Of a stretch of 64,000 bases of DNA, positions 17,841-64,000 are shown one piece after another. Origin of the DNA: Streptomyces sp. 840.1 (GTDB lineage: Bacteria; Actinomycetota; Actinomycetes; Streptomycetales; Streptomycetaceae). The stretch lies in assembly GCF_003751445.1 (NCBI RefSeq), contig NZ_RJUU01000003.1:1178001-1242000 (forward strand), in the 5' to 3' direction. Position 1 is the first letter of the stretch, and every line of letters begins with the position of its first letter. The notes under the pieces were generated by a model. It did no database searches. It was not told where the DNA came from and was given only the letters and a program-made list of their open reading frames with translations. A program made the translations under genes and the position numbers.

Positions 17841-18050
17841 TCAGCCCTGGAGGGCGACCAGGCTCGCGGGTCGCAGGTCCGTCCAGTTCGCCTCCACGTG
17901 GGCGAGGCAGGCTTCGCGGGTGTCCGCGCCGAATGCGGTCCGCCAGCCGGCGGGGACCTCGGCGAAGGCGGGCCACAGCGAGTGCTGGTTCTCGTCGTTG
18001 ACCAGGACCAGGAAGGTGCCCTGCGGGTCCTCGAACGGGTTGGTCGTCAT
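17841..18050 (-). CDS. MbtH-family NRPS chaperone
   Basis: 69 aa, the usual family length. It has both signature blocks: [19 protein letters not shown] and [15 protein letters not shown]. MbtH proteins bind the N-terminal part of adenylation domains and are needed for their solubility or activity. The start ATG overlaps the NRPS stop as ATGA, so translation is coupled and the partner is almost certainly this NRPS. Confidence 0.96.
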
Positions 18051-31100: not shown

Positions 31101-32373
31101 GGTCGCTGAGGGCGCTCAGTACGGTGCGGAAGCGGCGCTCGTGATCGCGGAGGGTCTCCTCGTCGCAGAGGTCGGCGTCCGCGTCGAGGTGGACGAAGCC
31201 CCGGCCGTCCCGGGTCTCGGTGAGGGCGAAGGCGAGGTCGCTGACCGGGCCGAGCCACTCGGGCCGCAGTTCGGCGTCCAGCCCGTCGAAGCCGTATCCG
31301 TCGTTCCCGGGCAGGATGTTGACGGTGGGGCCGACGAGTTCCCGGACGCCGTCGACCAGGCCGAGGTCCCTGGCCAGGTGCTCGGCGCGGTGGCGTCCGT
31401 GCGCGGCCGCTTCGGAGACCTCCCGGCGCACGTCCGCGACGAGCTCCGCGCCCGTGGTGCCGGGGCGGACGGTCAGCCGCAGCGGGACGAGGTTGGAGAC
31501 CATGCCGGGGACGACGGCCGACACCGCGTCCTGGCGGGCGGCGACCGGCAGCCCGAGGACCAGGTCCTGTTCGCCGGTGACCCGGTGCAGGTAGGCGGCG
31601 ACGGCCGCGACCAGCAGCCGGGAGGGCCGGACGGCGGCGTTCACGGCCGCGGTGTGCAGCCGCCCGGCTTCCTGCGGGGTGAGTTCGAGGGTGCGGCGCA
31701 GCCGCCGCGCCGTCAGGGAGTGGCCGCGCTCGACGAGCCGTACGGGCTCGGGCCGGCCGGCCAGGCGCTCGTGCCACCAGGCGCGGTCCGCCTCGTGCCG
31801 GGCGGAGTCGCGGTACTCCCGGTCGGCGTCGACCAGCCGGCCGAGGGACCAGTCGGCGCCAGGGGCTGCCGCCGCGCCCAGCGTGTAGAGCTCACCGGCG
31901 CGGCGGGTGATCAGGGTGACGCCCATGCCGTCGAGGACGATGTGGTGGTAGCGCTGGTACCAGCGGACCCGGTCGTCCGCGAGCCGCAGCAGGGCCTGGG
32001 CGTAGAGCGGTGCCCGGTCCAGGGGTGCGGGCCGTTCGCGTTCGGCCGCCGCCCAGTGGTCGGCGGCCGCCTCGGGGTCGGGGGCGTCGCGCAGGTCCAC
32101 GACGGGGACCTCGACGCCGGCGGTGACGGCGCTCTGGCGCGGTCCGCCCTCCCCCGGGGTGAACTCGACGTGCAGGCAGCCGGCTTCCGTTACGGCCTGG
32201 CGGACGGCGGCGGCGAGCCGGCCGAGATCCGTGGCGCCGTGCAGGTCCAGGGCGAAGACGATGTTGTAGGCGGAGCTGGCTGGCTCGATCTGCTGGGCCG
32301 GCCAGATCCCGGCCTGCCCACCGGTCATGGGGGTCCCGGCGGTGGTTGTCCGGTCCGGCTCGGCGTCAAACAT
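27928..32373 (-). CDS. Siderophore NRPS, upstream part (C1-A1-T1-C2)
   Basis: Start ATG at 32373 with AGGGAAAGG 12 nt upstream. The true coding part ends at the frame break near 28130; 27928-28128 is out-of-frame tail. Domains: a starter condensation domain C1 with intact HHIVLDG near residue 142, A1 with [11 protein letters not shown] near residue 609, carrier T1 with GGDSI near residue 1000, and C2 with HHIVADG near residue 1180. The by-eye A1 code is DVWIVGAVNK, close to A4, and both share [13 protein letters not shown] around the pocket, so both probably load an N5-modified hydroxyornithine. A condensation domain before the first module suggests acylation of the first residue. With the downstream part this gives a 4,775-residue, four-module enzyme. 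It assembles the hydroxamate peptide from products of the monooxygenase and formyltransferase encoded upstream. Confidence 0.93.
28129..28132 (-). other. Single-base frame break in the NRPS condensation domain C2
   Basis: The plus strand reads GGGG here. Upstream of it the frame gives C2 sequence ending DITDAVHY; the next frame resumes [17 protein letters not shown]. One added G (five instead of four) restores a continuous C2 and the whole NRPS. This is either a homopolymer sequencing error or a real one-base deletion. No slippery-sequence signal typical of programmed frameshifting is apparent. Confidence 0.92.
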
Positions 32374-32419
32374 CGTACGAAATGGCCTTTCCCTGATGAT
32401 GTGGGCAAGGAGAGGACGT

Positions 32420-32460
32420 CCCGTCCGATGGCGTGCCGGGCCGGCACGCCATCGGACGGG
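32420..32460. terminator. 20-bp perfect hairpin between binding-protein and NRPS genes
   Basis: Arms 32420-32439 and 32441-32460 are perfectly complementary around a single G, inside the 123-bp spacer after the binding-protein stop and 47 bp before the NRPS start. No iron box lies between the genes, so the NRPS must be read through it. I read it as an attenuator or mRNA-end stabiliser that would give more binding protein than NRPS. Confidence 0.82.
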
Positions 32461-32496
32461 CACCCCTGTTCGGTCCTGCTGAGGTGGGGCGGCGGG

Positions 32497-33540
32497 CTAC
32501 TTGACCGAGGTCAGCAGCGGCACGATCTCGTCGATCGCGTAGGGGATCGAGAGGACCGTGTTGAAGGAGAACGCGGCGCCGATGTCCGGGTCCTGGTAGG
32601 GCACGAACAGATCGCGCTTGTCCTTGCTGACCTCGAGGTTCTTGTAGAGCGGCTCGGCCTTGATCCGGTCGTTGGCGTCGGTGCTGGAGGTCACCCAGAC
32701 CAGCCGGTCGACGTCGAGCACGTTCAGCTTCTCGGAGCTGAGTTCGGCGGCGTTCCAGCCCGGCTTGGCCAGCTTGTCGATCTCCGGCTTCAGCTTGAAG
32801 CCCAGCTCGGAGAAGAAGATCGACTTGGGGTCGGTCTTCGTGAACGCCGAGTACTTGCCCGCCTCGAAGCTGTCGGCCACGGCGAGGGTCTTGGCGGCGA
32901 ACTCGGGGTGCTCGTCGCGGACCTTCTTGAAGTCGGCGTCGATGCCGGTGATCAGCTTCTCGGCCTGCGCCTTCTTGCCGAGCGACGCGCCGATCTGCCG
33001 GGTCATCACCTGCCAGGAGGCCCCGTAGTCGGGCAGGTCCTTGGGCTGGGCGACGACCTTGGTGAACTTGGAGAGCGTGTCGTACTGCTCCTTCTTCATC
33101 CCCGAGTACTGGGCGATGACCAGGTCCGGCTTGAGTGCGGCGATCTTCTCCATGTTGTACTCGTCGCGCTCACCGACGATGTCAGGTGTGTCGGAGCCCC
33201 ACTTGGCCTTGGTCCAGGGCCACTTGCCGTACGGCTTCTCCTTGAACCAGTCCACCGAGCCGACGGGCTTGGTGCCGAGCGCGAGGACCGCGTCCTGGTC
33301 CGAGAGGCCCAGGGTGACGATCCGCTTGGGCTCCGACTCGATCGTCGTGCTGCCGTACTTGTGCTGGACCGTCACCGGGAAGGCACCGGACTTCGCGCCC
33401 GACCCGGCCGAGGCGCTGGACGAGGCCTTGTCGTTGCCGCCCCCACAGGCGGCCAGAGCGACGGCGGCGACCGCCGCGACCGCCACTCGGGGTGCGAATC
33501 TCACGAGCCGCGTCGGAGCGGGGCGTGTACCAGTGGACAC
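32497..33540 (-). CDS. Ferric-siderophore-binding lipoprotein
   Basis: 347 aa from a GTG at 33540 with AAAGGAAC upstream. A lipoprotein signal ends in the lipobox LAAC followed by GGGNDKASSS. The mature protein is a FecB/FepB-type (cluster A-II) binding protein: RIVTLGLSDQDAVLALGTKP, KIAALKPDLVIAQYSG and a C-terminal VLSIPYAIDEIVPLL. It captures the ferric siderophore outside the membrane for the FecCD permeases encoded at 10345-12521. It lies between the monooxygenase and NRPS genes, and a strong hairpin follows it, so it is probably the most abundant product of the transcript. Confidence 0.93.
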   Translation of the reverse strand: MSTGTRPAPTRLVRFAPRVAVAAVAAVALAACGGGNDKASSSASAGSGAKSGAFPVTVQHKYGSTTIESEPKRIVTLGLSDQDAVLALGTKPVGSVDWFKEKPYGKWPWTKAKWGSDTPDIVGERDEYNMEKIAALKPDLVIAQYSGMKKEQYDTLSKFTKVVAQPKDLPDYGASWQVMTRQIGASLGKKAQAEKLITGIDADFKKVRDEHPEFAAKTLAVADSFEAGKYSAFTKTDPKSIFFSELGFKLKPEIDKLAKPGWNAAELSSEKLNVLDVDRLVWVTSSTDANDRIKAEPLYKNLEVSKDKRDLFVPYQDPDIGAAFSFNTVLSIPYAIDEIVPLLTSVK

Positions 33541-33653
33541 GGATGTTCCTTTCAGGGGGTTTTCACTGTGCGTGCCGGGCCCGCCGCGTACGGGCGGCGG
33601 GCCTGGCGAGATGTGGGGGGGCGGGCCGATGGCGGACCGGGAACAGGGGCGCG

Positions 33654-35003
33654 TCAGGGCGCGGCGAGGTCCCCGGCGAGCGGGCGGGGCGCGTCCGAGG
33701 CGTTCTTCAGGCCGCGCTCGACGATCGAGTCGAGGATCTCGCCGACCCTGATCGCGGTGTTGGACAGCAGCGAGGAGGTGATGCCGTGGGTGTGCTCGGT
33801 GCCGCCCTGGAGGTAGATCCCGCAGCGCAGTTCGTCGTCGGTCGCGATGCGGTAGTCGCGCTCGACCCGGACGCGGCCCGCCTCGTCGCGGTGGCAGTGC
33901 CGTGCGACGTCACCGAGGAGGCTCAGGGGCTCGACGGGGCTGTACCCGGTGGCGAGGACCACGACGTCGGCCTCCAGCGTGCTCTCCTCGCCGGTGACCA
34001 GGGAGGTGACGGTGGCGCGGACCTTGTCCCCGTCCTCCTCGACGCCGGTCAGCCGGGAGATGTTGATGAAGTGCAGCCGCTCGGTGCCGAGCACCTTCTC
34101 CTGGTACGCCTGGCGGTACAGGTCGTCGATCAGGTCGATGTCCACCACGGAGTAGTTGGTGTTGCCGTGGTAGCCCATCAGCTTGCGCTTGACGTCGTCC
34201 GGGGCGGCGAAGTACTCGTCGACCGCTTCCGGGTCGAAGATCCGGTTGGCGAAGCTGCTGTCGTCGGCCGGGCTGTAGCCGTAGCGGGAGAAGACCGCGC
34301 AGACCTCGGCCTGCGGGAAGCGGCGGTGCAGGTAGGCCACGTTCTCGGCGGCGCTCTGGCCGGCGCCCACCACCACGAACCGGGCCGGGTCGGTGCCCTC
34401 CAGGGAGTCGACCTTGGCCAGCAGGTCGGAGTTGTGCCAGACCCGGTCGGTGCGCTCGACGCCCTCCGGCATCAGCGGGCGCAGCCCGGTGCCGACGACG
34501 AGGTTGCGGGCACGGTGGACCACCGTCTCGTCGCCCGAGCGGGCCGTGACGTCGACGTACTCCACCACCCCGTCGACCAGGACGGGTTCGACCGAGACCA
34601 CCTCGTGGCCGTACGACACCATGTCGTCGACCTTCGCCGCGGCCCACTCGAAGTAGTCGTGGAACTCCACGCGCAGCGGGAAGAGGTTCTTGCCGTTGAC
34701 GAAGTCGATCAGCCGCCCCCTGCTCTGCAGGTAGCGCAGGAACGTGTACTCGCTGGACGGGTCCCGCAGCGTCACCAGATCCTTGAGGAACGACACCTGC
34801 ATCGTCGCGTCGTCGATCAGCATGCCGCGGTGCCAGCCGAAGGCCGGCTGGCGCTCGAAGAACTGCGCCGTGACCGCCTCCTGCCTCCCCACTCGCGCGT
34901 TGTGCTCGCTGAGCGCGATCGCCAGGGCCACATTGGACGGCCCGAAGCCGATTCCTATGAGGTCGTGGATCAGAGGTGCGTCGCCAGGATCAACCTGTGA
35001 CAT
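33654..35003 (-). CDS. L-ornithine N5-monooxygenase (SidA/PvdA/CchB type)
   Basis: 449 aa. Motifs in order: FAD-binding GIGFGPSNVALAIAL (about residues 17-31), substrate/FAD region ATMQVSFLKDLVTLRDPSS, NADPH-binding VVGAGQSAAENVAYL and the C-terminal ATGYSPVEPLSLL. The enzyme hydroxylates the side-chain amine of free L-ornithine with NADPH and oxygen, giving N5-hydroxyornithine, the hydroxamate precursor. It is the first gene of the minus-strand biosynthetic transcript; iron box 6 lies 89 bp upstream. The divergent formyltransferase acts next. Family and role are well supported. Confidence 0.96.
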   Translation of the reverse strand: MSQVDPGDAPLIHDLIGIGFGPSNVALAIALSEHNARVGRQEAVTAQFFERQPAFGWHRGMLIDDATMQVSFLKDLVTLRDPSSEYTFLRYLQSRGRLIDFVNGKNLFPLRVEFHDYFEWAAAKVDDMVSYGHEVVSVEPVLVDGVVEYVDVTARSGDETVVHRARNLVVGTGLRPLMPEGVERTDRVWHNSDLLAKVDSLEGTDPARFVVVGAGQSAAENVAYLHRRFPQAEVCAVFSRYGYSPADDSSFANRIFDPEAVDEYFAAPDDVKRKLMGYHGNTNYSVVDIDLIDDLYRQAYQEKVLGTERLHFINISRLTGVEEDGDKVRATVTSLVTGEESTLEADVVVLATGYSPVEPLSLLGDVARHCHRDEAGRVRVERDYRIATDDELRCGIYLQGGTEHTHGITSSLLSNTAIRVGEILDSIVERGLKNASDAPRPLAGDLAAP

Positions 35004-35091
35004 GTCACTCCCATCGTGCGGGACAGCCGCCTGTCAGGCGTGGACGAAAAGAACGGGACGCGGGCACACCGAGAGCGGCAGCCAGTCGAAC

Positions 35092-35110
35092 TTAGGTAAA
35101 GCTAACCTGA
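35092..35110. promoter_or_regulatory. Iron box 6 (biosynthetic operon)
   Basis: TTAGGTAAAGCTAACCTGA, 89 bp before the monooxygenase start on the minus strand. It probably controls the monooxygenase-binding protein-NRPS-mbtH unit. Confidence 0.85.
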
Positions 35111-35196
35111 CTTCGACGAGTCTGTCGACCAGACAAAAGCGGACTAATCACCAGGTGCCCTACCTAACGCGCCGCAAATCAGGGCCCGTTGCGTCA

Positions 35197-35215
35197 TTAG
35201 GTAAGGCTTGCTTTA
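35197..35215. promoter_or_regulatory. Iron box 7 (formyltransferase)
   Basis: TTAGGTAAGGCTTGCTTTA, with a well-conserved left half and weaker right half, 37 bp before the formyltransferase start. Together with box 6 it forms a divergent iron-controlled promoter pair. Confidence 0.75.
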
Positions 35216-35252
35216 CTTGGCGTCGATCATTCGCTCACCTGAGGAGGAACCC

Positions 35253-36200
35253 ATGCGGGTCGCCATGTTCGGTTACCAGACCTGGGGCCACCGCACCCTG
35301 CGAGCCCTCCTGGAGTCCGAGCACGACGTGGTGACGGTCGTGACGCATCCCAAGAGTGAGCACGCGTACGAGAAGATCTGGAGCGATTCCGTAGCGGACC
35401 TGGCCGAGGAGCACGGCGTCCCGGTGATCATCCGCAACCGGCCCGACGACGAGGAGCTGTTCCAGCTGCTCCAGGAAGCCGCTCCGGACATCATCGTCGC
35501 CAACAACTGGCGCACCTGGATCCCGCCGCGCATCTACGACCTGCCCCCGCACGGCACGCTGAACGTCCATGACTCGCTGCTGCCGAAGTACGCCGGGTTC
35601 TCGCCGCTGATCTGGGCGCTCATCAACGGGGAGACCGAAGTCGGCGTCACGGCCCACATGATGGACGAGGTGCTCGACGCCGGCGACATCGTGGACCAGC
35701 GCGCGGTGAAGGTCGAGCCCGCCGACACCTCCGTGGACCTGTTCCACAAGACGGTCGACCTGATCGCACCGGTCACCATCGGCGCGCTGGACCTGATCGC
35801 CTCCGGGCAGACGGAGTTCACCCGGCAGGACCGCTCGCAGGCGACGTTCTTCCACAAGCGGGCCGAGGAGGACATCCGCATCAACTGGGACTGGCCCGCC
35901 GAGGTGCTGGACCGCCTCGTCCGCGCCCAGACCTCGCCCTACCCGAACGCCTTCACCTTCCACCGGGGCAAGCGGCTCGAGGTGATGTCCGCCGTCGTGT
36001 CCGACGGCAGGTACGGCGGCACGCCCGGCCGCATCTTCTACCGCGAGGGCGAGGGCGTGGTGGTCGTCGCCGGCGCCGACGCGCGCACGGGCCTCAACCA
36101 CGGCCTCGCCATCACCCGGGTGCGGACGGAGGACGGCCGGGAGCTGCCCGCGACCGAGTACTTCACCGCCATGGGCGGATACCTCACCAGCCGCCCCTGA
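35253..36200 (+). CDS. N5-hydroxyornithine formyltransferase (CchA type)
   Basis: 315 aa. Start ATG at 35253 with GAGGAGG 5 nt upstream. A methionyl-tRNA-formyltransferase-like fold: MRVAMFGYQTWGHRTLRAL, the catalytic region NVHDSLLPKYAGFSPLIWAL with its His, and the Asp region MMDEVLDAGDIVDQ. It has a C-terminal Fmt-type domain (VSDGRYGGTPGRIF). In coelichelin and related loci this family transfers formyl from 10-formyl-tetrahydrofolate to N5-hydroxyornithine. The divergent position from the ornithine monooxygenase supports the same substrate, and the iron box supports the siderophore role. It is too far from any def gene to be the housekeeping tRNA enzyme. Confidence 0.94.
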   Translation: MRVAMFGYQTWGHRTLRALLESEHDVVTVVTHPKSEHAYEKIWSDSVADLAEEHGVPVIIRNRPDDEELFQLLQEAAPDIIVANNWRTWIPPRIYDLPPHGTLNVHDSLLPKYAGFSPLIWALINGETEVGVTAHMMDEVLDAGDIVDQRAVKVEPADTSVDLFHKTVDLIAPVTIGALDLIASGQTEFTRQDRSQATFFHKRAEEDIRINWDWPAEVLDRLVRAQTSPYPNAFTFHRGKRLEVMSAVVSDGRYGGTPGRIFYREGEGVVVVAGADARTGLNHGLAITRVRTEDGRELPATEYFTAMGGYLTSRP

Positions 36201-53838: not shown

Positions 53839-54678
53839 ATGGATGCGGCCAGGACGACCCACGTGGCACACGACGACGACGCGGAGGCCCGGATGCCCCG
53901 GGAGGACCCTGATCTGATGGAGTCGGTGTTCACCAACTTCCGTCGCTATCTGATGGGTTGGGACTCGACAAGCCGTCCGGGCCCCGTCGTCGACCAGTTC
54001 CGCAGTGGGCTGGCCACCCCGCAGTTCAACGGTGTGGTGCGCGCGACTTTCACTTCGTCGCCAGGTCCCACCGTGGCGGCCGTCCGCAAGGACCTGGCCG
54101 GTGTCCCCTGGTGGTGGTGGGTCGGCCCGGACAGTCCCGAGAACACGGCGAGCACCTTGCGGCGCCATGGGGGCAGGGAACTCACCGTTCTTCCTGTGAT
54201 GGTGAGACCCCTCGGCCACCAGGCGGGCCCGGGTGGGACGCCCGGTCCGGACGGTACCCGTACCGGCCTGCGGGTCGAGGCGGTGCGGCACGGCGAGCAG
54301 CTGGCGGAGCTGGTCCGGACGTACCGGTCGTCGATGGGTGTCGCGCCTGCTCTGGAGGCAGAGATGACACGCATCGAGTCACAACGCGAGGACAACGCCG
54401 GCATCGTCCGGCTCGGCGCGGTACTGGACGGCCGGCTGGTCGGGTCCACAGTGGTGACAACCGCCAACAGAGTGGCCGGGATCTTCCTCGTGCACGTGGC
54501 CGAAGCCCATCGCCGCCAGGGCGTCGGGGCGGCGCTGACGGTCGCCGCCCTACAGGTCGGGCGGGAAAGGGGGATGCACGCCGCCGCGCTCGTATCGAGC
54601 CCCATGGGCGAACCCCTCTACCGGCGCTTCGGCTTCACGACGCGAGCGGAGTACCGCCTGTTCGACTTCCCGGCCTGA
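53839..54678 (+). CDS. GNAT-family N-acetyltransferase with extended N-terminal domain
   Basis: 279 aa. The start at 53839 lacks a clear ribosome-binding site; ATGs at 53893 and 53917 are alternatives. The N-terminal 130 residues form a GNAT-like but degenerate half (WWWWVGPDSPENTASTLRRH). The C-terminal half has the acetyl-CoA loop EAHRRQGVGAALTVAALQVG and the closing YRRFGFTTRAEYRLFDFP. This two-lobed form is common in Streptomyces and its acceptors are mostly unknown. Confidence 0.8.
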   Translation: MDAARTTHVAHDDDAEARMPREDPDLMESVFTNFRRYLMGWDSTSRPGPVVDQFRSGLATPQFNGVVRATFTSSPGPTVAAVRKDLAGVPWWWWVGPDSPENTASTLRRHGGRELTVLPVMVRPLGHQAGPGGTPGPDGTRTGLRVEAVRHGEQLAELVRTYRSSMGVAPALEAEMTRIESQREDNAGIVRLGAVLDGRLVGSTVVTTANRVAGIFLVHVAEAHRRQGVGAALTVAALQVGRERGMHAAALVSSPMGEPLYRRFGFTTRAEYRLFDFPA

Positions 54679-54777
54679 ACGACGGTCCTGTCCGTCGACC
54701 TTGTGGCCCTGTCACCCGGTTCCGTGGCGCCTGCGGCGTCAAGCTCGACGCCCGTCCGGACCTTGGTTGGCCCGTTG

Positions 54778-55761
54778 TCAGTGATCGTGGCCGTGGTCGG
54801 CCTCGGCAGGCGGGAAGAACACGACGTGCGGCTCGGCGTTCTCGTCCAATCGGAGGCTGTGGTACATCGTGAGCGTGTGATTCACGCCCAGGGTCTCCAC
54901 ACCACCCAGCCGCCCGGACCACTTCTGGATGACAGGTTGGGCGGCCTCCGCCGCAGCCGCCTCGTACATCGTCTTGAAGTACAGGTAGATGTGGTCGGTT
55001 CCGACCGTCTCACGGGCGAGCCTGCGCTTCTCCGGCGTGATCTCCAAGGCGTGGCGTGCCGCGGTGCGTATGTCGTGCATGTACTCGCGCTGGATCTTGA
55101 CGTCCTGCCGCGTCCCCAGCCGGGTCAGATGGCCGGTGATCATGGTGTCGAAGTCGAAGGAGAGCGCGTGATCGTGATGCGCCATGAATCCGCGGATGTC
55201 CTTGGACTGGGCGATGTTGGTGAACGGGACCCACCCGGGATAGATGACGTCGACGAGCATCAGAATCCGCTGACGCGGCAGGTGAATGAAGCTGTTGCCC
55301 GGCGCGTGGTTGCTGCCCTTGTAGTGCATCTCGATCACCTGGCCACCCACCTCCAACCGATGCGAGTCCCGGAAGGTGACATCGGGCGGACGCCGCAGGG
55401 CATCGTCTGCCTCGCTCAGCAGGGTGTGGGTCTCCTGCTGCGCGATGCGGACCGCATCGTCCGGAAACTGGTTCACCGTGCCGATGTGGTCACCGTGGGA
55501 GTGCGTGTACAGGACGTGGCTGATCGGTTTACCGGTCACATCGCGGATGGCCCGGGTCACGAGCGGTCCGAGCGACGGCGGCGCGTCGATGGCGACGACC
55601 TGATCGTCGCAGACCACGAAGGCACATTGGTATCCACCGTCGGTGACCCAGTGCACGCCGTCGGCGATCTCCCGCACCAGATATCCGGAGGGCGGAACCG
55701 TCGGCCCGATCGCTTGTGCCGGAATCGAGGGGATCTCGATCCCGCCGGCGGTGTGCGTCAT
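54778..55761 (-). CDS. Metallo-beta-lactamase-fold hydrolase, cytoplasmic paralogue
   Basis: 327 aa from the ATG at 55761; the longer ORF to 55797 is less likely. Metal motif YTHSHGDHIGTV, second His in EMHYKGSNHAPGN, Asp in MLVDVIYPGWVPF and a late His in ITGHLTRLG. Colinear with the Tat-exported gene at 46578-47669 but with no signal peptide, so it acts in the cytoplasm. The C-terminal HDHDH-like ending could bind metal. It lies downstream of the SARP-type regulator; candidate SARP repeats at 55821-55839 precede it. Confidence 0.88.
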   Translation of the reverse strand: MTHTAGGIEIPSIPAQAIGPTVPPSGYLVREIADGVHWVTDGGYQCAFVVCDDQVVAIDAPPSLGPLVTRAIRDVTGKPISHVLYTHSHGDHIGTVNQFPDDAVRIAQQETHTLLSEADDALRRPPDVTFRDSHRLEVGGQVIEMHYKGSNHAPGNSFIHLPRQRILMLVDVIYPGWVPFTNIAQSKDIRGFMAHHDHALSFDFDTMITGHLTRLGTRQDVKIQREYMHDIRTAARHALEITPEKRRLARETVGTDHIYLYFKTMYEAAAAEAAQPVIQKWSGRLGGVETLGVNHTLTMYHSLRLDENAEPHVVFFPPAEADHGHDH

Positions 55762-55820
55762 CGTCTCTCGCTTTCGTGCGTACGGCGTCGAAGTCACGGC
55801 CCAAGCGTGATCCGGGGAGC

Positions 55821-55839
55821 GTTAATCGCCCCGAAATCG
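55821..55839. promoter_or_regulatory. Candidate weak SARP repeat pair
   Basis: GTTAATCG (55821) and CGAAATCG (55832) start 11 bp apart, in the 90-bp spacer before the metallo-hydrolase gene. The first copy resembles the GTTA-N-CCG units at 62949-62998; the second is weak. Confidence 0.35.
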
Positions 55840-55850
55840 CGGGCCGTTGC

Positions 55851-58800
55851 TCACTGCCGCAACCGGGCCACCAAGCGCCGCACCTCGACTGACGGCGCGA
55901 CTCCCATCTCCCGCATCGCCGCCGTGTACCGCCGGTACAGGGCCAGTACGGAGTCGTCGCTGCCGCTCGCATGGGCCAGTTGGATCGCGAGCTGCCACGC
56001 CTGCTCGCGGTACGGGCTCCGCCGGAGCACGCTGTCGACGAGTCGGCGCGCCTCGCGGTACCTGCTGAGCCGGAACGCCAGCCTGGCCGCTTCGACACGG
56101 CCGCCGTCGATCCGGTCGCCGATCTCGGTGCGGCGCAGCTCCACCCAGGTGCTGCCCAGCGTCGCGAGGTAGGGCCCCCGCTCGGCACGTGCCAGCGCGT
56201 CGGTCATGGTGCGTAATCGGATTTCGCCGTCCTGGCGCTCGGCCTGTACGAGGGTGTCGAGCAGGACCTGTGCCGAGCCACTGACGAGGTCAGGGCGGCC
56301 GAGGCGAAACCGGTCACCGTCCTGCTGGGGCATGAGCTCCTCGGGAAGTACCTCGCGCAGCCGGTAGAGCGCCTGGCGCAGGTAGCTCCGGCCGGCGGCG
56401 TCATTGCGGCTGTCGAACAGGGCGTCCAGCAGTTCCTGCCGGGGCACCTCACGCCGCTCCGCGAGCAGGTAGCTCAGCAGCTCCATGCTCTTGCTGAGCC
56501 GCAGCGGGGCTCGCTGTCCGTCGACAGTCAGGAAGGGTTCGCCGAACTCCTCCAGCAGCAGACGCGGAGCCCGGGACGCGACCCTCAGCGTGTCCTGGCC
56601 GGACAACGCGGCGGTGAGCTCGTGCCAGCGTGACATCCGGGTCGGAGAGGCGTCCGCCTCCCGCACCGCCACGGCGGGGACGTCGGCGAGCGCGGCCAGC
56701 AGCAGGTGCTGTGACCCCTGTGCCGCGGATTCGCTGAGGGCGAGCTCAGCCGCCGCGTCGGAAGCGTCCTCCTCACCGAGACGCCAGTACGCCTCCGCCA
56801 AATAGACCGCTCCCGTCGCCAGTTCGAGCCGCCGGTCGCCCCGCCGCATGCTGTCGACGCACGCCTCCAGTTCCCCGCGTGCCTCGGCGTCACGATCTCG
56901 GAAGAGCAGGGAGAGCCCGTGCCACAGCTGGTGCAGCTCGCGGCTGAACGCGTAGTCGGTGGCACCGCGTTCCTTGGCTTCAGCGAGGGCGTGGTCGGCT
57001 GCGGCGGTGTCGTGGCGCAGCCGCAGACACAGCTTCGCCTCGTTCAGCCATCCCAGGATGTGGTACAGCCGGGAACCGGTGTCCGCGATCAGGCGGCGGC
57101 CGCGTTCCAGGGCGGCCGATGCCTCGTCCCCGTACCCGAGGTCACTCATGAGGTCGACCGCGTCCACCGCGTGCAGCCAGGGCGGCTGCCACGATTCCCG
57201 GCGTACTTCATACATCTCCATGGCTTCTTCCAGGCGTCCTGTCGCCCGTAGTCCGGCGATGATCCAGGGCACGCCGAGGACGGGGCGCGCAGGCTCGCCT
57301 CCGGCCGGGCGGTCCAGCCCGCGTAATCTGCCGCGGAAGTAGCCGATGCGCATGTGCATCCCGTCGACGGCGCTCGCGGGCGCCGGAGCGTAGTCGGGGA
57401 ACGGGGGCGAGGTGCCGTCGGCCAGGGCCAGGAGGCTCTGGCCGACTTCCCGGGCCCGCCCGGCGGGCAGCCGCTCCGCGATGGCCCGGGCCTCGCCCAG
57501 CCGGCCGGAATGCCACAGGCACCAGGCCGCCAGGAGGACCACTTCCTCGAAGTGGGGCGAGTCGGGCCCCGGCAGCCACTCATCGCCGTGCCGGTCCAGG
57601 AGTTCGATGCCGCGCCGGCTCTGTTCGAGCGCGAACGACACCCGAAGCACGACAGAGCCGATCTCGGGGGTGGGCACCCTCGCGGGGTCGTGCAGCGCGT
57701 CCAGCCATCGGGCAGCGGAGGTGAAGTCCATACGGGCGACCAGGCGGGGCAGGGCGATCGCTGCCTGCCGCCAGGCATCCTCCGTGTCGCCCAGTTCCAG
57801 CAGCTCTTCGACGGCCTCCTCCAGGGCTCCTCGCCGTACCAGCAGGCCGGCGTGGAGCCGGTGCAGCCGGTCCACGGTCTCCGGATCCGCGGTGCGGACC
57901 AGTTCAGCGGCCAGGAACTCCCGAAACTGGGGACGTGTGGTGAGCCTGCCGCCGTTCTTGGACCAGTACACCGGCAGGTGTTTGTGGCGCAGGCCGGCCA
58001 TGAGACGGACGGCGTCGCTCTGTCCGAGCGCCATGGCGTCGTCGACCGAGATCTCTGGCAGGAGGCTGGTGTGCAGCAGAAAGGTCCGTTCCTCGGCGGA
58101 CAGGGGGCGCAGGATGTTGGCCGCGAGGTAGCCGCGCAGAGCGTCGGCCTTGTGGTCCGCGGGACCGCCGGTCGGCGCTACCTCGAGCAGCACTCCTGCC
58201 ACCCAGCCGCCCGTGGCCGCCAGGATGTCCTGGCCGTCGGCAGCGGGGCGGCCCATGAGTCGCAGGGCGGCCGCCGTCTCGTCGATGTCGAAGGCGAGGT
58301 CCTCGTCGAGTTCGCCGACACGGGAGACGGCGCCGGCCGAATCGACGTCCAGTGCGACGCCGGTACGGGAGATCAACACCAGGTTGACGTCCGCGGGCAG
58401 GTATCGCGCGAGCGCCGACAGGACGACGAGCGCGTCCTCGTCCGCCGTGATCCGCTCGACGTTGTCGCAGACCAGCACCGTGCGGCTGCCCTCGAGGCTC
58501 TCCGCGAGGAGTCCCGCTGCCTCACCGATGTGCATGCCCTGGCGCAGCGCGTCAGAGGCGACGCGGCGTGCCCGGGGAACCTGCGGCTCGACCGCCGCTT
58601 CGAGATAGGCCAGCAATCGCCCGGCAGTCCGCTCGGAGCCGTCGAGCACCAGCCAGGCGACTGGGCGGTCCACATCGCGCAGGGCCAGCGCGACGGCCGT
58701 GGTCTTGCCGCCGCCGGCGGGCGCGCACACCGTGGCCACGGTGTGACGTTCGAGGAGAGACCGGAGCGACAGTGTCAGCCGGTCCCGCCGGACGATGTCG

Positions 58801-58880
58801 TCACCGGGTTCGGGCGCCACGAACTTCCGTCGGATCAGCGTGCGTCGGTCGCCCTCGTCAGTGTCGTGATGATCTTCCAC
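55851..58880 (-). CDS. MalT-like ATPase regulator with C-terminal SARP (wHTH-BTAD) domain
   Basis: 1009 aa from a GTG at 58880. The N-terminus is a STAND ATPase: VCAPAGGGKTTAVALAL (Walker A), TVLVCDNVERI (Walker B) and LVLISRTG (sensor). A long helical TPR-like middle covers about residues 330-760. The C-terminal 230 residues are SARP-like: FLTVDGQRAPLRLSKSMELL and RRSPYREQAWQLAIQLAHAS, ending in a BTAD-type helical bundle. Usual SARPs carry this domain at the N-terminus, so the order is reversed. It probably senses a ligand through the ATPase-TPR part and activates the flanking operons. GTTA-type direct repeats with 11-bp spacing in the metF-SDR promoter are candidate targets. Confidence 0.9.
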   Translation of the reverse strand: MEDHHDTDEGDRRTLIRRKFVAPEPGDDIVRRDRLTLSLRSLLERHTVATVCAPAGGGKTTAVALALRDVDRPVAWLVLDGSERTAGRLLAYLEAAVEPQVPRARRVASDALRQGMHIGEAAGLLAESLEGSRTVLVCDNVERITADEDALVVLSALARYLPADVNLVLISRTGVALDVDSAGAVSRVGELDEDLAFDIDETAAALRLMGRPAADGQDILAATGGWVAGVLLEVAPTGGPADHKADALRGYLAANILRPLSAEERTFLLHTSLLPEISVDDAMALGQSDAVRLMAGLRHKHLPVYWSKNGGRLTTRPQFREFLAAELVRTADPETVDRLHRLHAGLLVRRGALEEAVEELLELGDTEDAWRQAAIALPRLVARMDFTSAARWLDALHDPARVPTPEIGSVVLRVSFALEQSRRGIELLDRHGDEWLPGPDSPHFEEVVLLAAWCLWHSGRLGEARAIAERLPAGRAREVGQSLLALADGTSPPFPDYAPAPASAVDGMHMRIGYFRGRLRGLDRPAGGEPARPVLGVPWIIAGLRATGRLEEAMEMYEVRRESWQPPWLHAVDAVDLMSDLGYGDEASAALERGRRLIADTGSRLYHILGWLNEAKLCLRLRHDTAAADHALAEAKERGATDYAFSRELHQLWHGLSLLFRDRDAEARGELEACVDSMRRGDRRLELATGAVYLAEAYWRLGEEDASDAAAELALSESAAQGSQHLLLAALADVPAVAVREADASPTRMSRWHELTAALSGQDTLRVASRAPRLLLEEFGEPFLTVDGQRAPLRLSKSMELLSYLLAERREVPRQELLDALFDSRNDAAGRSYLRQALYRLREVLPEELMPQQDGDRFRLGRPDLVSGSAQVLLDTLVQAERQDGEIRLRTMTDALARAERGPYLATLGSTWVELRRTEIGDRIDGGRVEAARLAFRLSRYREARRLVDSVLRRSPYREQAWQLAIQLAHASGSDDSVLALYRRYTAAMREMGVAPSVEVRRLVARLRQ

Positions 58881-59114
58881 GGTGACCCGCCTAACTCAGA
58901 GGTCGGCACCACTCGATATCCGGTCGATAGTTGGCTGTCGTCAGGCAGAGCCTTCGCGGCACGTCCAAGGCCCCGCGACATCCGTGGTCGAGCGGGCTGT
59001 GCCGACGGCCAAGCACGCTTCCTCGGCGGCTGACAGCCCGTCAACCTACATATCATGGCAGGGAGATGGCCGCCCGGATCGGGCGAGGGGCGACTGTCGG
59101 ACTCGGACCGGCGC

Positions 59115-59618
59115 TCAGTCGAAGGCCGCCGGGTTACGGAGATACGCCTTGCCGTCGGGGTAGGACACCAGCTCGCACTGCAGACCCCACGGCGACAGGA
59201 AGTAGACCCACCGCTGGCCCTCGTGCGGGCCCCGGCTCCGCGTCGGCTCCGCGAGGACGCGCAGACCTCGTCGCCGCAGGTCGTCTGTCGCGGCGTCGAT
59301 GTCATCGACGTACAGGGCCAGGTGGTGGCCGCCGACATCGCTGTTGAGCGGTGGTTCCAGCCGTTGCCCCGGGGCCCGGTACTCGAAGACCTCCAGGATC
59401 GCCTGTCCGCCGATGCCGAAGAAGTAGATGCGCGGCGACACCGCCCGGTCATGGACGTTGAGGTGCTCACTCATCCAGTGTCCTGTGTCGTCGCGAAGGG
59501 GGCCGAGCCGGTACAGGTACTCGAAACCGAGCACGTCCTCGAAGAACTCGCGCGCCTGGTCGAGGTCGGGAACCGTGATTCCGAAGTGGTCGACTCGTGT
59601 GAGACCGGGGATGGGCAT
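59115..59618 (-). CDS. VOC-family protein, extradiol-dioxygenase-like ligand set
   Basis: 167 aa. Start ATG at 59618 with GGAGG six nt upstream, the strongest ribosome-binding site in the operon. A single pair of beta-alpha-beta modules: TRVDHFGITVPDLDQAREFF, GGHHLALYVDDIDAATDDL and LQCELVSYPDG. The His-His-Glu set matches metal ligands of type-I extradiol dioxygenases in order, but the usual extra N-terminal domain is missing. It is last in the metF-LigM-purU operon, so it may act on the demethylated (catecholic) product. A lyase or binding role is equally possible. Confidence 0.85.
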   Translation of the reverse strand: MPIPGLTRVDHFGITVPDLDQAREFFEDVLGFEYLYRLGPLRDDTGHWMSEHLNVHDRAVSPRIYFFGIGGQAILEVFEYRAPGQRLEPPLNSDVGGHHLALYVDDIDAATDDLRRRGLRVLAEPTRSRGPHEGQRWVYFLSPWGLQCELVSYPDGKAYLRNPAAFD

Positions 59619-59675
59619 GGAACCTCCGTGTGGTGTGATCGCTGTCGGTTGTGCGGGCCGGCGAACGCGTGGGGA

Positions 59676-60533
59676 TCACCGGAACACGATGGTCCGGTTC
59701 CCGTGCAGAAGTACGCGGTTCTCGCAGTGCCAGCGGACCGCGCGTGACAGGGCCAGGCACTCGGCGTCCCGGCCGAGGGTGGTGGCCTCGTCGGCTGTCA
59801 GGGAGTGGTCGATGCGTGCCATCTCCTGCTCGATGATGGGCCCCTCGTCGAGGTCCGGTGTCACATAGTGCGCGGTGGCGCCCACGAGTTTCACTCCCTT
59901 GGCATGGGCCTGGTAATAGGGGCGGGCGCCCTTGAAGCTGGGAAGCATGGAGTGGTGAATGTTGATGGCGCGCCCGTCCAGCTTCTTGCACAGGTCGGGC
60001 GACAGGATCTGCATGTAGCGGGCGAGCACCACGAGATCGATCTCCAGGTCCTCGACGAGGCCGGACAGCTCTGTTTCCGCGGCCGTCCTGGTCTCCGGCG
60101 TGACCGGTATGTGACGGAACGGGATATCGTAGGCCTCGGCCAGATACCGCAGGTTCGCGTGATTGGACACCACTGCGGCGACCTTCGCGTTCAGCGCGCC
60201 GCTGTGCGCGCGGAACAGCAGGTCGTTCAGGCAGTGCCCGAAACGGCTCACCATGATGAGGACGCGTTGCGGTGCACCGGCCTCCAACAGCCGCCATTCC
60301 GGGGAGAACCGTTGCGGTAGACCGGCGAAACCCGCGCGCAGGGTGTCGGCCGTGACGTGCGGGTCCAGCGCCTCGAACTCGACCCGCATGAAGAATCTGC
60401 CGGCCTCGCGCTCGACGAACTGCTGGCTCTCCACGATGGTGCAGTCGTGTTCGAGGAGCAACGTCGAAACGGCCTGGACGATCCCGGGCTGGTCGGGACA
60501 GGTAAGGGTGAAAACCCAACGGATAGCACTCAT
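59676..60533 (-). CDS. purU: Formyltetrahydrofolate deformylase
   Basis: 285 aa. Start ATG at 60533 with GGAGGA upstream. An N-terminal ACT domain (FTLTCPDQPGIVQAVSTLLL, about residues 8-80) is followed by a formyltransferase-like hydrolase domain with INIHHSMLPSFKGARPYYQA and KLVGATAHYVTPDLDEGPII, including the family's catalytic His and Asp. It hydrolyses 10-formyl-tetrahydrofolate to formate and tetrahydrofolate. Next to a LigM-type methyltransferase and MetF it would regenerate free tetrahydrofolate, so the O-demethylase does not run out of acceptor. Confidence 0.94.
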   Translation of the reverse strand: MSAIRWVFTLTCPDQPGIVQAVSTLLLEHDCTIVESQQFVEREAGRFFMRVEFEALDPHVTADTLRAGFAGLPQRFSPEWRLLEAGAPQRVLIMVSRFGHCLNDLLFRAHSGALNAKVAAVVSNHANLRYLAEAYDIPFRHIPVTPETRTAAETELSGLVEDLEIDLVVLARYMQILSPDLCKKLDGRAINIHHSMLPSFKGARPYYQAHAKGVKLVGATAHYVTPDLDEGPIIEQEMARIDHSLTADEATTLGRDAECLALSRAVRWHCENRVLLHGNRTIVFR

Positions 60534-60592
60534 CCCGATTCACGTCCTCCGCGGTGCAGGGAATGCCTTGCAGCACTTGGTCGGGACAACGG

Positions 60593-61939
60593 TCAGACCA
60601 GCGGGCGTGTATGCAGCGTGGCGCGGATGTATCGCTGGACATGCGGTTCGACGGTGGGTTTCGCCGAACCGCCGTTCTCCTCACCGATGACGATCTCGAC
60701 CTCCCGGCCGTCGGTCGCCTCCGCCTCGTCCACCATGCCCAGGGAGGACCAGCCTCCGACATTGACGGTATAGCCGTTGTTGGCGGACACGCCCACCAGC
60801 CGGCCGTCGACAAGGACCTTGTCGTAGGTGCCGGTGGCGTAGTGAGAGACCGGCATCTCCAGATACTTCGCTCGTGGTCCGGTGCCGAACAGGCTGTCTG
60901 CGACCAAGTCCGCGGTGTCCCGGTCGCTCCAGCGCAGCCACACCTTCCTCCGGTGCGGTTGATCCGCCATCCGCTCGAGCGCCGCGCGTCCGACGAAGTC
61001 ATGGTCGAACTTGATGACGCGTCCGTAGCCGAGGTCCCATGGCGTGACGTAGTAGTCCTCGATGTCCTGCGACACGAAGCTGCCGCCGATGGAGGCGTTC
61101 GCCTCGAAACCCTCGGCGGAGAGCCATTCCCGAAAGGGTTTCATCGAGGCGCCTGTGTAGAGAGCGGGTACCGGCGCGGGAATCCAGCCGGACTCGATGG
61201 CGGTGGAAGGGTAGGCCCGTGCGCCGCCCTGACGCAGCCCGAAGTCCTCGCCGGCCACGAGCAGTGCATCCAGGACCCGTTCGCCGTGCTCTGACGGGCC
61301 GATCAGTTCCAGGCCAGTGAATTCCTGCCCGGGTATGCCGACCATGGTGTGGTTGAGCGCGCGGATCGGAACACCCGCGATCTCGATCTCACCCATGCCG
61401 AAGAACCTGATCCGCGGGAGCGGTGCACCCGCCGCCTTTTCGACGATCCTGTGCGTGGCCGGACCGTTGAGCTGGAAACGGAAGGTGAGGCGCCGGCCGT
61501 CGTTGGCGATGGACCGTTCGTCACGCGTGACCGTGACGCGGTATTGACCCGTTTCGGCTTGGAAAGCGACCCAGTTGGGCGCGACCGGCCGTCCCACCAG
61601 GCTGAACTCGTCATCCTCGAAGCCGAACAGGATGGCGTCACCGACGAAGTATCCGTCGTGGTTGCACGCCACGAACTGTTTCGCCTTGTTCCGTCCGAAG
61701 TTCCGGAAGCCGTTCACGCCGAGGTCGGACATGAGCCGCAGCGCGTCCGGGCCTTTGAAGTAGATGTCCGTCATGTGGTGCGACTGGTCGAAGAGCACCG
61801 CGGTCGCATGCCATGCCCGCTGTTCGTCCCGCCAATTCGTGTATTCCGCACGCATCGGGTACACGTACGGGCCCTGAGGGACGTTGCGCAGCATGTCCGC
61901 GACGTTTCCGGCCTGCTGGATCTTCTCTTCGAGATTCAT
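60593..61939 (-). CDS. Tetrahydrofolate-dependent aryl O-demethylase (LigM/DesA/GcvT family)
   Basis: 448 aa. Start ATG at 61939; the ribosome-binding site is poor. GcvT-like fold with tetrahydrofolate-binding features: TAVLFDQSHHMTDIYFKGPD, ALNHTMVGIPGQEFTGLEL, and the LigM-like TPWDLGYGRVIKFDHDFVGR plus NGYTVNVGGWSSLGMVDEAE. Size and pattern fit vanillate/syringate O-demethylases of the LigM type rather than glycine-cleavage T protein, and no gcvH or gcvP is near. It moves a methyl group from an O-methyl aromatic (or similar) to tetrahydrofolate. The flanking metF and purU genes handle the resulting one-carbon unit. The aromatic substrate is not known. Confidence 0.88.
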   Translation of the reverse strand: MNLEEKIQQAGNVADMLRNVPQGPYVYPMRAEYTNWRDEQRAWHATAVLFDQSHHMTDIYFKGPDALRLMSDLGVNGFRNFGRNKAKQFVACNHDGYFVGDAILFGFEDDEFSLVGRPVAPNWVAFQAETGQYRVTVTRDERSIANDGRRLTFRFQLNGPATHRIVEKAAGAPLPRIRFFGMGEIEIAGVPIRALNHTMVGIPGQEFTGLELIGPSEHGERVLDALLVAGEDFGLRQGGARAYPSTAIESGWIPAPVPALYTGASMKPFREWLSAEGFEANASIGGSFVSQDIEDYYVTPWDLGYGRVIKFDHDFVGRAALERMADQPHRRKVWLRWSDRDTADLVADSLFGTGPRAKYLEMPVSHYATGTYDKVLVDGRLVGVSANNGYTVNVGGWSSLGMVDEAEATDGREVEIVIGEENGGSAKPTVEPHVQRYIRATLHTRPLV

Positions 61940-62004
61940 GAGAAATGCACACTCAACCTTCTGTCGGCGGGCGGAGTTTCGGTGAGGACATCAGAATCCG
62001 CCGG

Positions 62005-62865
62005 TCATCCGGCCTTGTCGGCCTGTTCCGTGCCGGTGGCGCGGGAAATCCATTCGAGTGCGGCGTCGACCTGATTGAAGGAGAACAGGTGCAGACCCTC
62101 GACCGACATTTCAGCGAAGGAGATCTCCTGCTGTACGGCGCGCAGCAGGTCCATGGGTTCATAGGAACGTCCCAGCAGAAGACTGCCGACCATGCCGTGC
62201 TGTCCGGACAAATACCGTACGGACTGTCCGACACCGATTCTGACTGACAGTTCGATCAGTTTCCTGGCCTGCAGCGGAGCCGCGACACCGATCCGAAGCG
62301 GCAGGGTGATGCCGCGGTCACGAGCGGACCGCACCCACGAGGTCAGGGCGGAGGCGTCGAAACAGAGCTGGCTCACCATGTAGTCGGCGTAGTGCTGCTT
62401 GAGCGCCAGAGCCTCCGACAGCTCGTCCTCGCCGATTTTCGGGTGACCCTCCGGGTAACAGCCGACCCCGAGCCGGGTCAGCCCGTGGTCGAACTCGCGC
62501 AGTTCCCGCAGCACGTCCAGGGCCTCGCTGTATGGTCCGACGGGCTCCTCTCCGTCGCCGCCGACCACGAACAGTTCGTCGACCCCGAGGTCGGTCACCC
62601 CGCTTACGAACTCGCGCAGTTGTGCCCGCCCCGCGACCATGCGGGCAGCCAGATGGGGCACGACCCGGAGCCCTGACCGACGGGCGGCCGCCACGTGGTC
62701 GAGGGTCCGTGACAGCCCGAACTTCGGCGAGCACGTGATGCTTATCGTCGTTCCCGCCGGCACTGCGGCCGCCTTCCCTTCCGCGCCCTTCAACGGAATG
62801 ATTTCGATGCTGGAAGCACGGACGATCTCTTCGATCGTCGGCTTCCGGCCAGCAGATCGCACCAT
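62005..62865 (-). CDS. metF: Methylenetetrahydrofolate reductase
   Basis: 286 aa. Start ATG at 62865 with AAGGCGGG upstream. MTHFR barrel: SIEIIPLKGAEGK in place of the usual FEFFPPK block (catalytic Glu kept), DELFVVGGDGEEPVGPYS around the flavin-site Asp, and VSQLCFDASALTSWV. In the housekeeping direction it makes 5-methyl-tetrahydrofolate. Here, next to a methyltransferase that produces 5-methyl-tetrahydrofolate, it probably oxidises it back to the methylene form, as in lignin-aromatic O-demethylation clusters. It is the first gene of the operon, divergent from the SDR. Confidence 0.9.
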   Translation of the reverse strand: MVRSAGRKPTIEEIVRASSIEIIPLKGAEGKAAAVPAGTTISITCSPKFGLSRTLDHVAAARRSGLRVVPHLAARMVAGRAQLREFVSGVTDLGVDELFVVGGDGEEPVGPYSEALDVLRELREFDHGLTRLGVGCYPEGHPKIGEDELSEALALKQHYADYMVSQLCFDASALTSWVRSARDRGITLPLRIGVAAPLQARKLIELSVRIGVGQSVRYLSGQHGMVGSLLLGRSYEPMDLLRAVQQEISFAEMSVEGLHLFSFNQVDAALEWISRATGTEQADKAG

Positions 62866-62948
62866 CGCTGTTTCCCGCCTTCTTGAGCTGGAGCACGTTG
62901 GATCGGGCGTGTGGCCTCGAATTTCGGCAAGAGCGTACGACGGTGATC

Positions 62949-62998
62949 GTTAGACGCTTGTTAACCGCGACTTCGCCGCGTTATCCGCCCGTTAGCCG
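62949..62998. promoter_or_regulatory. Four GTTA-N-CG direct repeats, 11-bp pairs (candidate SARP operator)
   Basis: GTTAGACG (62949), GTTAACCG (62960), GTTATCCG (62980) and GTTAGCCG (62991): two pairs with exactly 11-bp start-to-start spacing, 20 bp between pairs. Eleven-bp direct repeats are the hallmark of SARP binding. They lie in the 211-bp divergent promoter between metF and the SDR gene and are the most likely target of the SARP-type regulator encoded at 55851-58880. Confidence 0.7.
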
Positions 62999-63076
62999 TC
63001 GTTGCTCCTCGGCCGCCCGTGTTCCAGGCTCGGTGTGGCGGTACGGCGCCGCCGGGCATGGACGGAGAAGACAGCA

Positions 63077-63883
63077 ATGACTCTTGATATTCGACTCGAC
63101 GGACGCACCGCTCTGATCACAGGAGGCGGGAGCGGCCTCGGTCTCGCGGTGGCGCGGCTGCTGCACCAACAGGGCGCCGCTGTCGCCCTCGTCGGCCGAA
63201 CCCGGGCGAAACTGGAGGAAGCCGCGGAGAGGGTCGCCGAAGGCGGTGACAGCCCGGTGCTGACCGTGGTGGCCGACGTCACCGACGATGACGCCGTCAC
63301 CCGTGCGGTGCGTAACGTGCACGAGTGGCAGGGCCGGCTGGACATCGTGGTCAACTCCGCGGCGCCCCTGCTGGCGGTCAGCCCCCTGGCCGATGTCGAC
63401 GAGGCCGTCGTGAGTGACGCGCTGAGCGCCAAGACCGTCGGCTATCTCCGGGTCGCCCGCACCGCCCTTCCTCTCATCGAGAAGGGGGGTACCGGACGCA
63501 TCATCAACATCGCGGGCATGGCGGCGCACGTGCTGGTTCCCAACATCGGGGTCGCCGCCGCGGTGAACGCCGCCGTCGTCGCCCTGACCAGCTATCTGGC
63601 GGCCGAGGCAGCACCACAAGGTGTGCTGGTGAACGGCATCTCACCGGGCATGACACTGACGCAGGTCTGGCAGGACCGGCACGCGGCCACCGCCGAGGAG
63701 AAAAACGTCACGCCGGAGCAGGTGCGCGACGTCATGGTCGACAACCTCGGCATTCGCCTCGGTCGCTGGGGCCGCCCCGAAGAGATCGCCGCCGCGGCTC
63801 TCTTCCTCGCCTCCGACCTGTCGACCTACGTGACAGGGCAGACCCTGCAGGTCGACGGCGGGCTCGGCAAGTCCGTCATCTGA
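63077..63883 (+). CDS. Short-chain dehydrogenase-fold protein lacking the catalytic residues
   Basis: 268 aa. Start ATG at 63077 with GGAGAAG upstream. Rossmann motifs are intact: ALITGGGSGLGLAVARLL, DIVVNSAAPLL and the SDR end VTGQTLQVDGGLGK. The active site is not: the Ser position is IINIAGMAA, and the YxxxK segment reads VAAAVNAAVVALT, with Ala for Tyr and Asn for Lys. The cofactor may still bind, but classical reduction or oxidation is unlikely. It could be a sensor, a lyase-like enzyme or a partner subunit. It shares the repeat-bearing promoter with the O-demethylase operon. The 117 bp after it to the window end show no gene. Confidence 0.87.
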   Translation: MTLDIRLDGRTALITGGGSGLGLAVARLLHQQGAAVALVGRTRAKLEEAAERVAEGGDSPVLTVVADVTDDDAVTRAVRNVHEWQGRLDIVVNSAAPLLAVSPLADVDEAVVSDALSAKTVGYLRVARTALPLIEKGGTGRIINIAGMAAHVLVPNIGVAAAVNAAVVALTSYLAAEAAPQGVLVNGISPGMTLTQVWQDRHAATAEEKNVTPEQVRDVMVDNLGIRLGRWGRPEEIAAAALFLASDLSTYVTGQTLQVDGGLGKSVI

Positions 63884-64000
63884 CGAACGGAGAGGAACAT
63901 ACGCGGCGATCGCAGAGGCGGTCCGCGAAGCCTGAGCGGCGCGCTCGCCGGGCGGAGATGCGACTGTGCTACGGCCGCGTCCGAGGACGGCTACGGAGAC

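Follow-up and report, generated by a model that had tools for sequence, protein, structure and literature searches.

Through tetrahydrofolate (THF)-dependent O-demethylation, methoxylated lignin monomers are opened with no need for oxygen; the characterised LigM, DesA and S6MTHFR in the papers cited here are sphingomonad enzymes. In SYK-6, a ligM-metF-ligH operon is controlled by the MarR-type regulator DesR (PMC6888825), and 5-methyl-THF is oxidised by S6MTHFR (PMC12585457). The Novosphingobium enzymes LigM, DesA and DmtS are reported to have different preferences (PMC8091115), Rhodococcus ruber R1 is reported to be without SYK-6-type enzymes (PMC9867520), and a demethylase, Dmt06, is identical to an Actinomadura protein (PMC9404685). 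Similar gene sets occur in many other bacteria, according to the part of PMC12585457 that cites Yu et al. 2025, and the genome survey by those authors may cover such sets. Here, we analysed a four-gene operon, metF-ligM-purU-VOC, on the minus strand at positions 59115-62865 of a 64-kb window (the whole stretch of DNA analysed; positions 1178001-1242000 of contig C3) in the 8.84-Mb genome of Streptomyces sp. 840.1 (G000). No published metF-ligM-purU operon was found in a literature search of partial coverage.

We consider it likely, with a probability of roughly 70%, that this is a dedicated operon for THF-dependent O-demethylation and one-carbon disposal, through which the methyl group of a methoxylated aromatic acid would pass via folate to formate. 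The LigM/DesA-like enzyme (60593..61939, minus strand, 448 aa) would transfer the methyl group of a vanillate-, syringate- or methoxybenzoate-like acid to THF. The S6MTHFR-like 5,10-methylene-THF reductase MetF (62005..62865, minus strand, 286 aa) would then work in the oxidative direction, from 5-methyl-THF to methylene-THF, a chromosomal FolD would be used to convert methylene-THF to 10-formyl-THF, and the 10-formyl-THF deformylase PurU (59676..60533, minus strand, 285 aa) would yield formate and THF. A divergent SDR dehydrogenase and the VOC protein (59115..59618, minus strand, 167 aa) would be accessory, probably acting on the carbon skeleton rather than on the methyl group, and a BTAD regulator would control the operon via TAAC repeats. 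Gene content and order, their conservation, the active-site residues and the distance of the operon MetF from the housekeeping copies are direct observations. The open reading frame list gave gaps of 65, 59 and 57 bp between metF, ligM, purU and VOC, bearing out an earlier note made from the DNA alone, which had described four minus-strand genes spaced by 57-65 bp.

The demethylase carries a GCV_T domain (PF01571, 114.4 bits), and its top NCBIfam models were DesA (560.1 bits) and LigM (499.6 bits). The GcvT, trimethylamine N-oxide (TMAO), sarcosine oxidase and dimethylsulfoniopropionate (DMSP) models gave at most 62.2 bits, with the GcvT cut-offs missed by a wide interval (NF001567, 62.2 vs 300; TIGR00528, 33.3 vs 235.85). 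The top PDB match was LigM (E 1.2e-126, residues 2-443). Fifteen of 16 LigM positions were identical in the demethylase, including Y29, Y31, Q57, H60, M61, R122, E215, Y247 and W256, the sole mismatch being T58 to S53. We take Tyr247 to be the catalytic residue of LigM, and Arg122 and His60 presumably lie near the substrate carboxylate. The active-site residues of the broad LigM/DesA-type family, catalytic Tyr247 included, are present in the window's protein. Across an 87-row alignment of LigM homologues (tblastn pieces shorter than 380 residues dropped), Tyr occupied the Tyr247 position in 82 rows and Arg the Arg122 position in 48. A quick tree of 85 of these rows (two L022 rows also removed) grouped the demethylase in an actinobacterial clade of 12 rows (SH-aLRT 99) that did not contain SYK-6 LigM. 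A methyl-transferring tyrosine and aromatic-binding residues are also mentioned for DesA-like proteins in PMC9296663. Judged from its sequence, the enzyme most likely acts like LigM/DesA whilst standing outside both curated equivalogs. The THF-dependent LigM-type demethylase proposed in the earlier note is thus supported by the LigM structure match and the retained positions.

The operon MetF matched the MTHFR family (PF02219, 41.6 bits; cut-off 24) and scored 56.3 bits on TIGR00676, far below the cut-off of 293.7 and below the two housekeeping-like MetFs of the same genome (321.4 and 322.4 bits). Its best PDB match was 7xg9 (117.4 bits), which we take to be the SYK-6 enzyme S6MTHFR; the next MTHFR gave 42.3 bits. 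The sequence is therefore nearer to 7xg9 than to ordinary MTHFRs, and the protein was classed as S6MTHFR-like. In a 41-row MetF tree, which has long branches and no housekeeping rows beyond these two, the two housekeeping-like proteins split from the other 39 rows with 100/100 support, via a very long branch. The 39 rows comprised the window MetF, 7xg9, 36 MetFs encoded at LigM loci and a single unlinked G000 copy. A further divergent MetF on contig C2 (G000:C2:808729-809301; L082:1294-2247; TIGR00676, 35.2 bits) adjoins MFS and ABC transporter genes; it clustered with LigM-linked Streptomyces MetFs in the tree, and no LigM homologue was found nearby. PurU exceeded the cut-off of its model (TIGR00655, 339.6 bits against 285.95) and matched PDB PurU structures at E 1.4e-83. 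It is the second copy in the genome, the other lying at C1:1521409. The divergent MetF, the PurU score and the clustering of folD in relatives support the predicted oxidation of 5-methyl-THF to methylene-THF by MetF and the release of formate by PurU, both suggested previously.

The arrangement SDR<>metF-ligM-purU-VOC-regulator recurred in S. plumbidurans, S. spinosisporus and strain MH60, with 72-90% protein identity. Elsewhere, metF, ligM and purU were found together in Actinacidiphila, Nocardia, Actinomadura and two Rhodococcus opacus plasmids. Because it is repeated in three other Streptomyces records, and its first three genes occur together in these other genera, the four-gene arrangement is more than chance. 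LigM homologues (E<=1e-60) were detected in 22/392 Streptomyces genomes and 14/396 genomes across the phylum, with G000 in both counts. Loci were gathered by similarity to the window proteins; contig ends truncate some of them, several derive from one genome, and a named and an unnamed record may represent one species. The 56 actinobacterial LigM-bearing stretches (9 named, 2 plasmid and 45 unnamed) were counted with the LigM places at G014:C285, G721:C1 and G488:C75 not extended; L004 and G336 represent the same contig, and its second copy (L141) was excluded from this count and from that of the VOC loci. The earlier note had proposed a search for metF-ligM-purU synteny in actinobacteria; both metF and purU were present in 32/56 stretches, and metF, purU and folD in 22/56. 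Where metF was present (33 stretches), it was located within 2.5 kb of the LigM gene and on the same strand in 31. Amongst 11 named non-actinobacterial LigM loci, counted apart, metF occurred in three, purU in two and folD in three, with none of the three genes in five. On the actinobacterial counts, the module is not mainly a sphingomonad one, as had been supposed.

Since the gene neighbourhoods of relatives fill in the chemistry, we regard metF, ligM and purU as a recurrent actinobacterial module. The order in Actinomadura meyerae was metF-ligM-folD-purU, and in Actinacidiphila oryziradicis metF-cyclodeaminase-folD-purU-ligM-folP, together with a gene for GTP cyclohydrolase I. The R. opacus 1CP plasmid carried metF-ligM-purU-folP, with a chlorocatechol dioxygenase gene ~4.5 kb past folP and beyond transposase genes. 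The R. opacus DSM 44186 plasmid carried pabB-ligM-metF-purU-folD, followed by a small gene annotated as protocatechuate 3,4-dioxygenase and by one for a class III extradiol dioxygenase; near the ligM cluster were also fdhD, folP and an FdhF-like gene. Across the 56 stretches, folP was observed in 14 and pabB in nine, and folC or folE in places (e.g. L006, L118, L120, L144, L145, L154 and L163), as though THF supply belonged to the demethylation module.

The VOC protein matched the Glyoxalase family (PF00903, 56.9 bits), and its own family is large (3455 matches at E<=0.001). The earlier note had pointed to a His-His-Glu set. These residues are real and would form a ligand trio; the set was incomplete, since E76 is also invariant: H11, E76, H98, H99 and E149 were conserved throughout 150-151 homologue rows (E76 in 151). 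E76 aligned with a Gln of methylmalonyl-CoA epimerase. That Gln is, we assume, a metal ligand, as a Glu would be in glyoxalase I. We examined 28 VOC loci outside the window's clade (24 from genomes and four from the 26 plasmid records with a match; G000 and G336 left out). Of these, 26 had a gene for a fused E1 alpha/beta 2-oxoacid dehydrogenase (25 of them within 700 bp), 23 had one for E2, four had folD and none had LigM. The VOC, fused E1 and E2 gene set was seen in many actinobacteria (L115-L117, L121-L140, L187-L190), in some cases near an M24 peptidase, SDR or folD. Matches on contigs of equal length in Mycolicibacterium chlorophenolicum (161407) and Nocardioides (331611) suggest that VOC and LigM share a contig there, at no stated distance. 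In the operon-bearing loci L003 and L004, the region past the SDR contained genes for E1, E2, a 3-hydroxyisobutyrate-dehydrogenase-like protein and a CMD-VOC fusion. Of these four, L005 had the last two and no E1 or E2 match within the examined stretch. The conserved residues, E76 included, favour a reaction of the lyase or epimerase type.

A large regulator (55851..58880, minus strand, 1009 aa), with a MalT-like N-terminal part and a C-terminal BTAD domain, starts 234 bp past the VOC gene, and the SDR (63077..63883, plus strand, 268 aa) diverges from metF. Both were assigned by profiles and are kept beside the operon in the three relatives; a PDB search with the regulator returned helical-repeat designs only. 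The 211-bp divergent promoter contains four TAAC half-sites spaced by 11, 20 and 11 bp, forming an upstream (62980..62994, minus strand) and a downstream (62949..62963, minus strand) operator-like TAAC-N7-TAAC direct repeat. These were the only such pairs in the window, none was found in the adjoining 20 kb, and 0/100 shuffles gave two. One perfect pair each was present in L003 and L004, and one perfect pair plus one with a 12-bp period in L005. Of 2000 resamples, six equalled or exceeded the TAAC count in the window, 10 in L003, 84 in L004 and one in L005, for a pattern chosen post hoc from the promoter alignment. SARP-type activators recognise direct repeats with an 11-bp period. The repeat spacing fits the BTAD regulator, with the proviso that the pattern was picked after the alignment had been seen. 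No riboswitch or other known RNA was detected at the gathering threshold in window positions 54000-64000.

Several observations weigh against a dedicated O-demethylation and one-carbon disposal operon. The demethylase missed both curated cut-offs (LigM NF047885, 499.6 vs 580; DesA NF047633, 560.1 vs 800), and the window MetF and 7xg9 fell into different sub-clades of the 41-row tree, with long-branch warnings. FolD is encoded outside the operon by two copies on contig C1, and the description of the operon as self-contained therefore does not hold. None of metF, purU and folD accompanied LigM in 18/56 stretches, and no good intradiol or LigB-type ring-cleavage gene was found in G000, in a search that did not extend to class I extradiol enzymes. 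An N- or S-demethylase of the GcvT fold, acting on sarcosine, dimethylglycine or DMSP, could feed the same one-carbon steps, and the common GCV_T fold and weak matches to the sarcosine oxidase, TMAO demethylase and DMSP demethylase models point that way. However, these models reached at most 36.6 bits against 560 for DesA and the LigM tyrosine and arginine are kept, making such an activity very improbable. The identity that the earlier note had named as fatal to its proposal, a sarcosine or dimethylglycine enzyme, was rejected on the model scores and LigM residues, with dimethylglycine oxidase matched at E 2.8e-6 as opposed to 1.2e-126 for LigM. Still less probable is a demethylenase that opens a methylenedioxy ring, like SesA or BrdA. 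Those enzymes are THF-dependent and have the fold in common with LigM/DesA, and SesA is a Sinomonas enzyme, yet LigM/DesA form a separate clan with ~27% identity to SesA and BrdA (PMC5547118). The window protein also aligned to LigM over its whole length, and a dedicated MetF should be unneeded by a demethylenase.

The fate of the ring bears on what the operon would be for. The single PF00775 match in G000 is weak (59.5 bits) and falls well short of the cut-offs for catechol and protocatechuate dioxygenases, and both LigB matches resemble 4,5-DOPA dioxygenase whilst falling below the cut-off of that model. Full aryl-ether catabolism in this strain, as first envisaged, is thus doubtful. An extradiol VOC enzyme that cleaved the catecholic product would complete such a pathway in the face of these weak genes; the VOC fold with its His-His-Glu trio, weak matches to catechol 2,3-dioxygenase (26.7 bits; cut-off 320.2) and to homoprotocatechuate 2,3-dioxygenase (HpaD, 23.6 bits; cut-off 321.4), both models describing two-domain enzymes, and the label 'catechol 2,3-dioxygenase-like' borne by some homologues at source are in its favour. 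Methylmalonyl-CoA epimerase and glyoxalase-type models nevertheless matched better, and the extra Glu occupies what we assume to be a metal-ligand position in those enzymes. Given this additional invariant residue, and the company of E1 in 26/28 loci and of LigM in 0/28, catechol cleavage by the VOC protein is unlikely and the role in handling a catecholic product proposed for it loses ground. The demethylated phenol may follow another route, or the operon may serve one-carbon recovery or detoxification, with the methyl group kept or removed as formate and the ring undegraded in this strain. Besides the poor ring-cleavage matches, this is suggested by the lack in G000 of any counterpart to the fused E1 gene that adjoins the operon in L003 and L004; the seven matches in G000, of 37% identity at best, fall on separate genes for E1 alpha and E1 beta. 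Against it, class I extradiol enzymes and other ring routes lay outside the search, and a strong PF00775 match (E 2.5e-64) exists in G336, which shares the operon. A hand count found a PF00775 match at E 3e-50 or better in 57/101 genus genomes and none in 44, G000 among them, and its absence therefore says little about the operon. We hold a purely one-carbon role to be a tentative, minority reading. Equally doubtful is an extended version of the O-demethylation operon, in which this Streptomyces clade would have merged it with a separate actinobacterial VOC/2-oxoacid-dehydrogenase module, the two sharing a single BTAD regulator and a single divergent promoter. One arm would perform O-demethylation, and on the other SDR and E1-E2 would act in turn on an oxidised side chain to oxidise it. 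The window strain, in which neither an E1 fusion gene nor a good intradiol dioxygenase was found, would keep the operon for harvesting one-carbon units or for detoxification, converting the methoxy carbon to formate with the ring left as it is.

A metallo-beta-lactamase-fold protein encoded next to the regulator (window 54778-55797) may be part of this pathway; the three closest relatives each have a counterpart beside the operon, with 81-83% identity. Further away, window positions 18047-36200 hold two long genes (3265 and 1511 aa), a siderophore-type periplasmic binding protein, an ornithine/lysine N-monooxygenase and a formyltransferase (35208-36200), a set that resembles a peptide-synthetase cluster for a hydroxamate siderophore.

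The operon and its relatives represent a broad actinobacterial branch with PurU as formate outlet, sometimes plasmid-borne with folate-synthesis genes, and the module supplies testable candidate O-demethylases and a clear prediction of methyl-carbon fate. As in Sphingobium SYK-6, a LigM-type demethylase is encoded beside a divergent MetF, which in SYK-6 works in the oxidative direction (PMC6888825 and PMC12585457). SYK-6 possesses the 10-formyl-THF synthetase LigH, whereas the window operon has PurU for formate release; it also adds the VOC protein, SDR and BTAD regulator, whilst the SYK-6 operon is under DesR. The R. opacus plasmids pR1CP1 and pRop44186_a likewise have metF and purU in one run with a gene for a LigM homologue, which shares 56.9% and 49.1% identity, respectively, with that of the window, with folP and pabB near on these plasmids. 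The gene order of pRop44186_a is unlike that of the window and the plasmid additionally has folD, ring-cleavage genes and the FdhF-like gene. Neither the VOC protein nor the regulator of the window was detected in the plasmid stretches examined. The dicamba demethylases Dmt, Dmt50 and Dmt06 are also THF-dependent O-demethylases (466-475 aa) and are likened here by description rather than by sequence, their substrate being a 2-methoxybenzoate-type herbicide (PMC9404685). DesA-like aminomethyltransferases from thermophilic actinobacterial metagenome-assembled genomes fall in the DesA branch and keep the methyl-transfer tyrosine, with metF in one such genome; they are reported with ligH and a predicted function only, and purU goes unmentioned in the available text of PMC9296663. 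The chemistry of the window operon is familiar from other bacteria, and PurU as outlet sets it apart as a variant.

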